Shown piece by piece: positions 2,163 through 10,198 of a stretch of DNA of 13,101 nt; the stretch's first letter is position 1, and the number at the start of each line of letters is the position of its first letter. The stretch is from Bacteroidales bacterium (GTDB taxonomy: Bacteria; Bacteroidota; Bacteroidia; Bacteroidales; UBA932). The position numbers and the translations under genes were made by a program. The notes beneath the pieces were generated by a model, which was not told the origin of the DNA, did not search any database, and worked only from the letters and a program-made list of their open reading frames with translations. The stretch covers positions 1 to 13,101 of the forward strand of contig JAGAAU010000198.1 of the NCBI GenBank assembly GCA_017615135.1. Direction: 5' to 3'.

Positions 2163-4799
2163 TTATTTCTGTTCTTTAGCACCCAGAATCTGCCTTGCAA
2201 GCAGCGGGCTGTTTGTGGTTATGGCATCTACACCGGCATTTGCCGAGGCCTTGATGTCATTTTCTCCGTTCACCGTCCATACATTCACGCTCATGCCACG
2301 TGCGTGGGCGTCTTCAATCCATTCAGGATGCTGCATTAGCACCTGATATTTATAATCCAGTCCGTTGATTCCGGCCGATTCCAGCCTTGCCGGCGCGTAG
2401 TTCCCGCTGAGGTACTGGCAGGTGAACTCCGGCGCAATCCTGGCTATCTCGGAGCAGATGTGCCAGCTGAAGGAAATGAAAACCACTTTGGAAGGATCCC
2501 AGAGCCCGTGGGCCTTGACGGCCTCCAGCGTTTTGGAGAGCAGCAGGTCTTCCCTGGTGTAATCTTTCTGCTTTTTCAGCTCTATTACCAGCACGGTTCC
2601 GCCCTTCTCGCCCTGGGTGAGGTATTCATCCAGGCTGGGCCGCCTTTCGCCGTTGGGCAGGGTAAAGGCCGCGAGGGTTTCAAAATTGTTGTCTTCAATC
2701 GCCAGCCCGGCTATCTTCGCATCGTGGTTCACTATCACCACGTTATCGGCGGTGAGGTGAATGTCGAACTCGGAGCCCCACACTCCGGCTTTCTGAGCGC
2801 TGCGGAGCGATGCTATGGAATTCTCGCTGAACCCTGCCTCTTCGCAGTTCCAGAAGCCGCGGTGAGCCACTATCGCGGTCTTTCCGCTGAATCCGGCAGC
2901 CGGGAATTTTTTGCCGGCCCCAAGGGAGGATATCACCGATGTGTTGATGGCGTTCAGGCTCGCTTCGTTAACCTTGATGACCTTGCGGTCGTAGGTCATG
3001 ATGCCGTTCACCTCCACTTCCACGTCCGTGGTTTGGGTATAGACGGCAGCACTGCAGCCCGTCTTGATATAGTCCTTGAGTATGCGGGCGAAGTCTTCAT
3101 ACTGGTCCAGGACTTCCTGGCCGCTGTGCTTCACTCCGCCGTAACCCCAGTTTTTGTCGCTTATCTTCCAGAGGTGTCCGTCTACCGGCCAGCCAATTCC
3201 GCCGTATTCCCCGAGCACGTTTACGACCTTTCCCTCGAACGCTTTCATGGCAGGGCCGGGGTAGTGGTGCACGTCCAGTATATCTCCGAGCTCCTCAAGG
3301 CTGAAATTACCCCCGGAGGAGGGGTTGATGAGGCGGGTGGCGTCTTTGCTCCTTGTGAAGCGTACCACTTCCGGAGTGTCGAACTGGCCCCAGGCCTCGT
3401 TGAAGGGTACCCAAACCACTATGCTCTGGAAGCATTTCAGACAGTCCATTATCTCGCCCCACTCCTTGTAGTAATTGTCTTTCCATTCCTGCGGAACCGT
3501 GCAGTCCGTGCCTCCGATGAAAGAGTCGCTGGCCCAGACGTTGGTCTGCATATCCTTGAGCTCCTGGCTGCGGTTCAAGGCCCTTCCGTTGCGCTTGCCG
3601 CCGTGGTCTGCTATGCTGGGCATATCCTGCCAGACCATGATGCCGAGTTTGTCGCACCACCAGTACCAGCGGGCAGGCTCCACCTTGATGTGCTTGCGGA
3701 TCATGTTGAATCCCCAGGCCTTGGTGCGCTCTATATCGTAGCGAAGGGCTTCATCGGTGGGGGCGGTGTAAAGGCCGTCCGGCCACCAGCCCTGGTCCAG
3801 CGGGCCGTACTGGAAGAGTATCTCGTTGTTCAGTGCCAGCCGGTTGAATTTGTTGGGGGTGCTTTCCTTAATTACGGAAATCTTGCGCATCGCCGTATAG
3901 CCTTTAACCGCATCGGTGGCGCTTCCATTTTGCGACAGGCTTATTTCTATATCGTACAGGAAAGGTGAATCGGGGCTCCAGAGTCTGGGTTTCTCCACTT
4001 TGAATACGGGATTCTCTCCGTCGGCCTCGGCTATCTTCACCCCGTCTTCATACAGGCAGCTGTGAAGCTCGCCTTCTCCGGGTTCGGATGTGCTGATATT
4101 CAGGCTTATGGTGCCGGCATCTATATCTGAAACTGCGAGGTAATTTTCGATGTGGTTGGCGGCTACAGGTTCCATCCATACGGTCTGCCAGATGCCGGTA
4201 ACGGGTGTGTACCATATTCCGACTGGCATCATCCACTGCTTGCCCCTGGGCTGCCAGGAAGAATCGGTGGCGTCCTGCACCTTAACCCGCAGGGTTTGCT
4301 TTCCGCTCTTCTTCAGGTAGGGGGTGATGTCGAAGCTGAAGGGTGCGTATCCGCCGGTGTGCTCTCCCACCTTGCTGCCGTTAACCCAGACGTCGGCCTT
4401 CCAGTCTACCGCGCCGAAGTGCAGCAGAATATTGCCGGAACGCCATTTTGAGGGTATGCTGAAACTGCGCTCGTACCAGAGAGCCTCATGCTCGTTCACT
4501 CCTCTGCCAACTCCGGAAAGGGAGGATTCCACTGCAAAGGGAACCAGAATGCTGCCTTCAACGCTGAAATCGGCAGATTCTGCCTCGGTGATTCCATAGT
4601 TCCAGAGACCGTTCAGGTTCATCCATTCGGCGCGCTGCATCTGCGGGCGCGGGTATTCCGGAAGAGGGTTGGCAGGGTTTACCTTTTCCGCCCATGTCGT
4701 TCTTATGTTGCTGCCTGCCGGAGCCCATTCGGGGGCTTTAGCATAGGCTGTTGAAATAGAGAGGATTAGGGCAGATATTAAACAAACGAAATTCCGCAT
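2163..4799 (-). CDS. Secreted GH2 glycoside hydrolase fused to glycerophosphodiester phosphodiesterase
   Basis: This 878-residue exported protein has two enzyme domains. Residues 1-20 are a signal peptide ending ISTAYA; no lipobox is seen. Residues about 40-210 form the jelly-roll sugar-binding domain of glycoside hydrolase family 2, with WVNGSKVGEHTGGYAPFSFD at 138-157. Residues about 215-305 form an immunoglobulin-like domain. Residues about 310-600 form the TIM barrel, with GFNMIRKH at 363-370, the likely acid/base E468 in VPFNEAWG, and the likely nucleophile E531 in LGEYGG. Residues about 640-875 form a complete glycerophosphodiester phosphodiesterase domain: H646-R647, E659-N660, the metal ligands E677 and D679, N691-H692-D693, E740, and the late WTVN motif at 841-844. 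The family 2 sugar specificity cannot be read from sequence. By inference the pair degrades glycosylated glycerophosphodiesters such as teichoic-acid or glycolipid fragments in the periplasm or outside the cell. Confidence 0.93.
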   Translation of the reverse strand: MRNFVCLISALILSISTAYAKAPEWAPAGSNIRTTWAEKVNPANPLPEYPRPQMQRAEWMNLNGLWNYGITEAESADFSVEGSILVPFAVESSLSGVGRGVNEHEALWYERSFSIPSKWRSGNILLHFGAVDWKADVWVNGSKVGEHTGGYAPFSFDITPYLKKSGKQTLRVKVQDATDSSWQPRGKQWMMPVGIWYTPVTGIWQTVWMEPVAANHIENYLAVSDIDAGTISLNISTSEPGEGELHSCLYEDGVKIAEADGENPVFKVEKPRLWSPDSPFLYDIEISLSQNGSATDAVKGYTAMRKISVIKESTPNKFNRLALNNEILFQYGPLDQGWWPDGLYTAPTDEALRYDIERTKAWGFNMIRKHIKVEPARWYWWCDKLGIMVWQDMPSIADHGGKRNGRALNRSQELKDMQTNVWASDSFIGGTDCTVPQEWKDNYYKEWGEIMDCLKCFQSIVVWVPFNEAWGQFDTPEVVRFTRSKDATRLINPSSGGNFSLEELGDILDVHHYPGPAMKAFEGKVVNVLGEYGGIGWPVDGHLWKISDKNWGYGGVKHSGQEVLDQYEDFARILKDYIKTGCSAAVYTQTTDVEVEVNGIMTYDRKVIKVNEASLNAINTSVISSLGAGKKFPAAGFSGKTAIVAHRGFWNCEEAGFSENSIASLRSAQKAGVWGSEFDIHLTADNVVIVNHDAKIAGLAIEDNNFETLAAFTLPNGERRPSLDEYLTQGEKGGTVLVIELKKQKDYTREDLLLSKTLEAVKAHGLWDPSKVVFISFSWHICSEIARIAPEFTCQYLSGNYAPARLESAGINGLDYKYQVLMQHPEWIEDAHARGMSVNVWTVNGENDIKASANAGVDAITTNSPLLARQILGAKEQK

Positions 4800-9316: not shown

Positions 9317-10198
9317 TTAGAGATAATATGAAATTCCGAACGACAGTGCCATGAGGTCTACCATGAAACTGGCGTTGAGTTTGGTGTTGCCGCCGCTCTC
9401 TATCTGATTGTGTATCTGATTGCTGCGGCTGTATCCGAAGTCCAGCATACCCACGCACAGGTTCACTGCCAGATGCGAGGTAAGAAATGCCATCAGTCCG
9501 GTGTTGAGCGCTATGTCGGCCGAGAATCCGGTATCGAAACTACCGCGGATGTTCTCGTTGTGTGCATCCTGTACTTTGGTCTGGCTGCCTCCGATTGCCA
9601 CCTCCGCATCAGCGAATGCTGCAAAGCGGCCGCTGGGGCCGAGCGGACGATAGTAACGGAAAAATACAGCTCCGAGGTACTTGTGCTTCAGGTATGAGTA
9701 GTTCTTTACGTCCAGGGAGATGTCTCCGAAGCCTGCGGACGCATTGTCTACGTTCAGGAAGGACCTGGAATAGCGGCCTCTGAACCCTATTCCCATGTTG
9801 TCTGCAAACATCCAGCAGAACTGGGGGCTGACCTGCAGGGAATGATGGTTGGAGGTGATGCCGCTAACTACGGCAAATGTGTAGTTGTCCTGCGCTCCGG
9901 CGCCGAAGCCGACGTTCCCGCCTATCATCCAGCTGCCTTTGCGTGCGATTACCGCCAGGGGCTTGTTCTCGTCGTAACCACGGTTGTACACCGGCCTCTT
10001 CTGCGCCATCGCGGCATTGCTGCCTAAAAGTAGAAACAGCAAGGCAAGAGCTGCCAGTGCGGGAGCTCTGTGGGTGCGACAACCGTCGCTTCGCGACCCC
10101 TCTCTAAAGGGCCCCTCCCTCTTACGTTGCCGAGGGTGGCACGGGTTGCTGCACCCAAGCAGCTCCCGCGCTTCTCCGGACCGCCAAACGCTATTCAT
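9317..10198 (-). CDS. Outer-membrane beta-barrel protein, first paralogue, with in-frame insertion in signal peptide region
   Basis: The 293-residue frame begins at an ATG overlapping the stop of the upstream lipoprotein gene by 8 bases (ATGAATAG). Residues 1-9 are followed by about 37 codons supplied by a palindromic element. Then comes a strong hydrophobic stretch (residues 47-59) and a cleavage site after SNAAMA at residue 65. The mature part carries outer-membrane-type strands and ends LSFGISYYL. Without the element the N terminus would read MNSVWRSGEALAALALLFLL, an ordinary signal peptide. With it, the n-region is about 46 residues long, very basic and has three cysteines. No other in-frame ATG gives a signal peptide; the one before GCGCAGAAG (residue 64) would give no export signal. 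The protein may be exported with an unusually long leader, or the gene may be impaired. No stop codon or frameshift is present. Confidence 0.8.
   Translation of the reverse strand: MNSVWRSGEARELLGCSNPCHPRQRKREGPFREGSRSDGCRTHRAPALAALALLFLLLGSNAAMAQKRPVYNRGYDENKPLAVIARKGSWMIGGNVGFGAGAQDNYTFAVVSGITSNHHSLQVSPQFCWMFADNMGIGFRGRYSRSFLNVDNASAGFGDISLDVKNYSYLKHKYLGAVFFRYYRPLGPSGRFAAFADAEVAIGGSQTKVQDAHNENIRGSFDTGFSADIALNTGLMAFLTSHLAVNLCVGMLDFGYSRSNQIHNQIESGGNTKLNASFMVDLMALSFGISYYL
10059..10169. repeat. 111-base palindromic (REP/MITE-like) element
   Basis: The ends are 26-base imperfect inverted repeats (10059-10084 and 10144-10169) that match at 21 of 26 positions, including the outer nine (GCGGGAGCT). 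The interior has a small hairpin GTCGCTTCGCGAC at 10085-10097, a GGGCCC palindrome near the centre (10109-10114), and purine-rich GAGGG blocks. The length is exactly 37 codons, and the element is read through in the first barrel gene. No transposase is encoded, so it would need one elsewhere. A clear target duplication cannot be seen; at most a GC dinucleotide is ambiguous. Copy number elsewhere in the genome is unknown. Confidence 0.72.

Follow-up and report, generated by a model that had tools for sequence, protein, structure and literature searches.

On the minus strand of the window, by which we mean the whole 13,101-nt stretch of Bacteroidales DNA that was analyzed, positions 9317-10198 carry a gene for a barrel-like exported protein that has no Pfam match and is 293 amino acids long if translated from the ATG at 10198. 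Near the start of this gene, and sense to it, lies a palindromic element of 111 bp (10059-10169, minus strand), which is supported by a repeat search, shuffled controls, a covariance model, and the sequence itself. According to a preliminary description, the stretch is 111 bases long, its terminal arms of 26 bases match at 21 positions, and it has no stop codon in the frame of the gene; each of these details was borne out. As it had also proposed, the flanks of the element, when joined by script, form the signal peptide MNSVWRSGEALAALALLFLLLGSNAAMAQ. Because the element begins at frame offset 29, codon 10 of the gene is split. Elsewhere in the window, a single frame (2163-4799, minus strand) joins glycoside hydrolase family 2 domains with a glycerophosphodiester phosphodiesterase domain.

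Read along the minus strand, the element opens with the 26-nt 5' arm of an outer stem, P1 (10144-10169), whose sequence is specific to the window copy. Hairpin P2 follows (10125-10143, a position read from the element sequence) with the loop ACCCTC, in which CCCTC (10132-10136) forms the 5' side of a proposed pseudoknot and GAGGG (10117-10121) the 3' side. Next come P3 (10102-10111), a short hairpin that varies in length among copies and has one mismatch here, and P4 (GTCGC GAA GCGAC; 10085-10097), which is nearly invariant in the sampled copies, partly by construction because the sampled loci were chosen by an exact core 20-mer that draws on this string. The 26-nt 3' arm of P1 (10059-10084) closes the element.

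An independent repeat search recovered 29-nt arms, 79% complementary, at this location, and the predicted fold was better than that of 200 out of 200 shuffled sequences on each strand (z of -4.6 and -5.3). The covariance model placed the window copy at exactly 10059-10169, and the ends derived from other copies coincide with those first proposed, stem pairing dropping after 26 positions. The window's own genome bin (1.5 Mb, 62% complete) yielded 12 DNA matches at E<=0.001 and 19 at E<=1, and the palindrome is therefore not a product of chance. A chance hairpin is ruled out by these repeat copies together with the covariation of the stem and the spread of the element over the genus.

Conservation of the fold

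The outer stem differs in sequence from copy to copy and is nonetheless paired, with a conserved core inside it. Loci L020-L138 were picked by the exact core 20-mer, and copies were then gathered with patterns that tolerated up to 2 substitutions per block. Among 107 copies that remained after filtering for similar flanks, at least 82% were Watson-Crick paired at each of the 26 outer-stem positions, beyond which pairing fell to 65, 56, 46, and 36%. The core keeps the order of hairpin P2, pseudoknot from the P2 loop, variable hairpin P3, and hairpin P4, and the P2 core string was exact in 97 of the 107. When 51 proposed pairs were evaluated over 50 copies, 94.5% of the cells were paired, compared to 70.2% when the partners were shuffled and 38-48% when they were slid. 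Changes on both sides were documented for 38 of the 51 pairs, including all 26 of the outer stem.

A pseudoknot in the core is supported by comparison of copies. The P2 loop is able to pair with the GAGGG that follows it, and the sequence of this pairing hardly varies within the genus, where L127 has CCCCC with GGGGG; outside the genus, four copies from two genomes (L278, L279, L322, and L323) have CCCGT with ACGGG. In 34 copies, double changes affected three of the five pairs. Pair 38/52 was UA in 26, GC in 6, and CG in 2, while pair 39/51 was CG in 29 and UA in 5, with none unpaired in either case; pair 35/55 was less well supported, with a single double change and 7 copies unpaired.

Stem mismatches have a direction. 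On the element strand we counted 101 G.U and 40 A.C combinations, the latter divided into 1 in copies sense to the host gene, 2 in antisense copies, and 37 in the remainder. The G.U to A.C ratio was 11:1 for sense and 13:2 for antisense copies, sets that were picked by locus and may include a few misfiled copies. Since the excess is seen in both orientations, it suggests that what folds is the strand of the element itself and not the mRNA of the host. Alternatively, mutational bias may have generated the excess; the numbers are small and the copies partly related.

Stem length was 25-31 in 99 of 136 copies by a simple scoring, a narrow range that disfavors preexisting hairpins as the targets of insertion. 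We also considered and rejected a longer, autonomous version in which a gene would separate the two halves of the core: for 158 of 187 left halves, a right half lay no more than 100 nt away, for 2 (L094 and L156) it lay at 100-4000 nt, and 27 had no right half.

Distribution of the element family

In a DNA search of 41 genomes, 15 had matches, all of them among the 25 that belong to the genus of the window, and the 16 genomes from outside the genus had none. A covariance model built from 50 copies had matches in 127 of the 151 genus genomes surveyed; of the 62 with a completeness of 90% or more and a contamination of 5% or less, 54 were matched. Among 198 genomes drawn from across the order, the model matched 4, namely the window's own, one in the same family but a different genus, and two in different families. 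Copy numbers per genome are lower bounds (24 candidates were scored in the genus survey and 18 order-wide), and a plain pattern count was set aside since its reversed-pattern control equaled the signal in some genomes. The exact core 20-mer occurred in at least 119 stretches of public genomes; among the matches listed, 79 of 80 belonged to bins of Bacteroidales or Bacteroidia, many of them of ruminant origin, and the remaining one was an Aquamicrobium bin (L082) that matched over 20 nt only. Copies are about 110-165 bp long. At L328 and at L281, both outside the genus, two matches each represent differing copies that lie close together in opposite orientations.

A viral, plasmid, or phage origin was rejected in the absence of exact 20-mer matches in viral contigs and of matches at E<=0.001 in plasmid and phage collections. 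Likewise, searches with Rfam 15 gave no known RNA family for the element. The covariance models had no match on the window stretch at E<=10, found only tRNAs at the gathering threshold in 14 sources with copies, and at E<=0.1 in 6 sources returned a TPP riboswitch beside the L041 copy and nothing on the element. At L041 (6019-6115 and 6120-6242, minus strand), the element copy lies 4 bases upstream of that riboswitch.

Copies within protein-coding genes

Copies occur in both orientations, between genes and within conserved genes. According to a heuristic gene caller, 35 of 114 copies are inside open reading frames, although one of them, L100, is really at a gene boundary; the lengths of 25 are divisible by three and those of the other 10 leave a remainder of 2. 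The translated inserts comprise some 37-55 residues within recognizable enzymes. Profiles confirmed 13 host gene families: RibF, YggS, TrmB, TruA, TilS, DapF, YgiQ, MtaB, a Thump-like methyltransferase, MurB, TruB, an M20 peptidase, and a family-2 glycosyltransferase. The profile matches mostly flank the insert on both sides or span it. For the host at L033, which we take to be a CYTH/TTM protein, there was no NCBIfam match. These in-frame copies uphold the suggestion that the lineage has repeatedly acquired the element as a protein-coding insertion.

We also evaluated reading frame without assuming that the frame is open. After 6 of 136 copies with short flanks were dropped, 28 of the remaining 130 had both flanks coding on one strand; in 7, the two flanks were coding but on opposite strands, in 61, only one flank had coding signal, and in 34, neither did. 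Among the 28, which are not independent because several are orthologous, 26 were in frame and 23 were also free of stops. By eye, the five exceptions consisted of three gene boundaries (L100, L130, and L137) and two doubtful cases (L122 and L211). A length divisible by three was not significantly enriched within genes (26 of 38 versus 56 of 98; p = 0.25), and no in-gene copy had a length with a remainder of 1, versus 22 of 98 others (p = 0.0005). At the boundaries L100 and L130, the element lies between codirectional genes, presumably gmk and nadD in the first case and xseA and xseB in the second; at L100, the upstream frame enters the element and stops inside it.

Empty sites, occupied sites, and reversal

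Homologous loci with and without the element were found for several hosts. For the window protein, 9 of 13 homologues besides its own entry have an ordinary signal peptide (P0002, P0004-P0006, P0008, P0009, P0011, P0012, and P0014), P0007 and P0010 begin too late to judge, and P0003 and P0013 carry a reversed element ahead of the hydrophobic core. Plain signal peptides are also found in syntenic genes of the genus that are more distantly related, such as L167, L168, and L170. For DapF, we fetched 30 loci from the genus and parsed 27, of which 2 carried the element (L216, at the same place as L163, and L217), 1 carried another repeat (L220), and 24 carried neither; L074, L128, and L095 are further DapF carriers. 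Filled and empty loci were compared for target duplication, but they are at most 79% identical and the junctions are not legible. Possible remnant short hairpins are present at the L260 TruA site and the L223 DapF site, and L259 possibly retains part of an arm. The preliminary description had named two observations that would count against a mobile insertion, a leader conserved in relatives and a single-copy element that lacks an empty site. What we found instead were two leader-bearing relatives with the element reversed, and a multicopy family, both in its own bin and across the genus, with empty sites in barrel and DapF homologues. The proposal that a mobile or REP-like sequence was inserted in frame is thereby sustained.

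Reversal was most extensively sampled in TruA. We parsed 119 sequences from a set made up of the best 120 of 7996 matches to a query that itself carries the insert, so the set is uninformative about how frequent the insert is. The element was antisense in 64, sense in 52, and unclear in 3; a stricter classification gave 61, 49, and 6 of 116, respectively. For 59 of the 116 oriented proteins, there was a partner of opposite orientation that was at least 97% identical outside the insert. In two pairs, L056 with P0016 (237 of 244 residues identical outside the insert) and L044 with P0037 (235 of 244), the residues encoded by the arms largely agree and the core is reversed. The arms may mediate the reversal. 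Most other close reversed pairs differ just outside the arms too, which makes replacement of the whole allele an alternative to flipping. Arms are also more alike at the same site (mean similarity of 0.718 over 30 pairs) than at different sites (0.601, standard deviation of 0.065, over 531 pairs), which supports descent at a site.

The TruA loop appears to be a tolerant place because unrelated short repeats sit there too. In other species it holds CHSERSEES (L254 and L256), PGLTGNPD (L262), or VISSEVEKSP (L264), and other arrangements of arms plus core occupy it in L253, L257, and L261. An AlphaFold2 model of an insert-bearing TruA was of modest quality, with a mean pLDDT of 62.7. Its longest stretch with pLDDT below 50, residues 183-232, covers nearly the whole insert and lies between strands at 166-180 and 237-244. 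The best structural matches of the model were TruA enzymes, with 1dj0 at the top (E = 2.6e-19), at TM-scores of only 0.38 and 0.42.

Discussion

On comparative evidence, we consider it likely that the element is a nonautonomous, invertible, protein-invading palindrome now dispersed across one Bacteroidales genus. This explanation is favored by its presence in 127 of 151 genomes, the covarying stem, the in-frame copies, the empty sites, and the reversals. Under this scenario, the mobility machinery would recognize a folded single strand, and selection would retain insertions that are in frame and located in spacers, at termini, or in loops that tolerate them. Once inserted, the arms could act as inverted repeats that allow the core to flip in place, while copying from arm to arm might preserve pairing as the sequence of the stem drifts. 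In the window, the insertion would have placed 37 codons in the n-region of a signal peptide, leaving the hydrophobic core and the cleavage region. Several points count against the explanation: no mobilizing enzyme was found near copies in the transposase loci examined, lengths divisible by three are not significantly enriched in genes, many in-gene copies are orthologous and hence not independent, and the database gene call for the window protein skips the leader. Flipping, in particular, is countered by DapF at L095, which differs from L074 in both stem and orientation despite flanks that are 93% identical.

A more specific form of the same explanation, and not one separate from it, is that a Y1 (HUH) transposase mobilizes the element as a REP or MITE by working on a folded single DNA strand, as has been proposed for REPs and RAYTs. 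We regard this form as possible but doubtful. Y1_Tnp genes, present in 45 of 61 genomes of the genus, track high element counts (Fisher p = 2.4e-5, kinship ignored), whereas reverse transcriptases (p = 0.78) and DDE_Tnp_1_6 (p = 0.4) were not associated with element counts in the same genomes. In addition, G.U predominates over A.C on the strand of the element irrespective of the direction of the host gene, as would be the case if that strand itself folds. Yet the element model had no match at E<=1 in 40 Y1 loci, which were taken from a longer list and include 12 in which our script located no Y1 gene. Furthermore, three genomes with no Y1 match (G000, G001, and G014; bins 62-74% complete) have 9-20 elements, while two with 3-4 Y1 matches (G009 and G010) have none. 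The tie to an IS200/IS605-like or RAYT transposase that had been suggested comes down to co-occurrence across genomes. At three of the Y1 loci (L310, L313, and L319), inverted repeats of a different motif lie near NHVHF/NHLHF-type genes; with GGTCC...GGACC at their inner ends, they are REP-like and unlike the element.

From sequence comparison, the outer-membrane-like protein of the window seems to have a signal peptide that the element makes longer. Alternatively, the leader could go untranslated, with a start codon inside or behind the element, which would then be mere 5' sequence. The database gene call for the window protein (P0001) agrees with this alternative, beginning at Met64, behind the leader and the hydrophobic core; because of that start, translation of the leader is argued from the open frame and from relatives. 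A signal-peptide n-region of more than 40 residues is, moreover, unusual. Nevertheless, the frame is open from the ATG at 10198 through the element to the hydrophobic core, there is no ATG between the element and that core, and others have called P0003 and P0013 with the reversed element in the same place. On balance, an untranslated leader is rather unlikely.

Could the element instead be a host RNA, such as a terminator, mRNA stabilizer, or regulator, that is kept for its fold at the ends of genes, with the intragenic copies being strays? The conserved fold, pseudoknot included, would suit such a function, and, going by heuristic gene calls, many of the intergenic copies have a stop codon no more than about 10 nt away. 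But copies take both orientations relative to neighboring genes, roughly 3 in 10 are inside reading frames, their sites are patchy among relatives, and Rfam offers no match, which together leave this possibility improbable. It is similarly a long shot that we are dealing with a pseudoknotted, RNA-like, and invertible counterpart of a SINE, one that would copy itself via a folded strand, rewrite or receive its stem at each site, and flip within open reading frames, so that alternative peptide loops and leaders would keep arising throughout the proteome of a genus from the ruminant gut. Least probable, in our estimation, is a cassette adaptive for the host, in which reversal of the core would switch a surface loop or leader as a form of coding phase variation: near-identical TruA proteins do exist in opposite orientations, relatives carry both orientations in the barrel gene, and elements have more open frames (means of 3.26 in genes and 2.76 elsewhere) than shuffled sequence (1.90), but unrelated repeats fit the same TruA loop equally well, which looks like tolerance, the hosts are mostly housekeeping enzymes, and the reversals come from comparisons between genomes.

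Among known systems, the invading palindrome that we favor looks most like the palindromic elements of Rickettsia (RPEs) and Wolbachia, which, in the available portions of the published accounts, are palindromes of about 100-150 bp found between genes and in frame in conserved genes (PMC2229807, PMC3767692). Like them, our element is of that size, has many copies, and lies in frame in conserved genes at exposed places where it is tolerated (PMC2229807, PMC3767692). It belongs to another phylum, however, and those portions describe RPEs without a copy-specific paired 26-bp stem, a pseudoknotted core, or reversal between near-identical proteins (PMC2229807, PMC3767692). Judged by analogy of architecture and behavior, it would work as RPEs do, yet it looks like a separate family.

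Other short repeats share some of these features. GTAG/CGTC REPs, as far as the available part of their description goes, are units of 20-40 bp that are often just behind coding regions, with some intragenic cases, including in pseudouridine synthase genes (PMC3733652). The element resembles them as a dispersed palindrome with some copies inside genes, pseudouridine synthase genes among them, but it exceeds 100 bp, has a conserved core and a 26-bp stem paired to its ends, and lacks the unpaired GTAG/CGTC tag described there (PMC3733652). Its copies do not flank Y1 genes (0 in 40 Y1 loci), unlike REPs mobilized by RAYTs (the REPtron). Similar to bacterial MITEs, it is short, has inverted terminal arms, and encodes no gene of its own. 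The arms of a MITE are common to all copies because the transposase reads them, whereas here the arms are copy-specific and it is the core that is conserved. Finally, palindromic candidate structured RNAs of the HMP2_4078 type, described from gut Bacteroidetes by their neighboring genes, are also around 100 nt; they were compared by description only, and the available text on them makes no mention of copies inside genes (PMC8040213). In searches of open-access full texts and Rfam, we found no account of this element family, and it is apparently new and of an RPE-like kind.

Most of what is known about protein-invading palindromes comes from Rickettsia and related bacteria, whose obligate intracellular life makes them difficult to study. 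What looks like a separate family is abundant in a genus of gut bacteria represented by the genomes of well over a hundred species, in which one and the same site can be compared in its empty and filled states and with the element facing either way. Such comparisons would open to testing the mode of movement of these elements, their effects on proteins, and their possible role as a source of new protein segments. The combination of a copy-specific paired stem and a conserved pseudoknot is unusual for a REP or a MITE and may point to recognition of a folded strand. On a practical note, gene callers can cut N-termini at such inserts, as happened in P0001.

Additional repeats share these genomes. 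L253, L257, and L261 have long inverted arms around apparently different cores, and L249 has a variant with an expanded P4 region; all could be sister families. Further short repeats are in frame, namely CHSERSEES, CHSERSPKGGVEES, VIPSEVEGS, PGLTGNPD, and a repeated QAGND, which we saw in L021, L114, L129, L163, L061, and L135, in the TruA loci L252, L254, L256, L262, and L264, and in the DapF locus L220. Several coding repeat families therefore coexist in the same genomes, and sometimes in one and the same loop.
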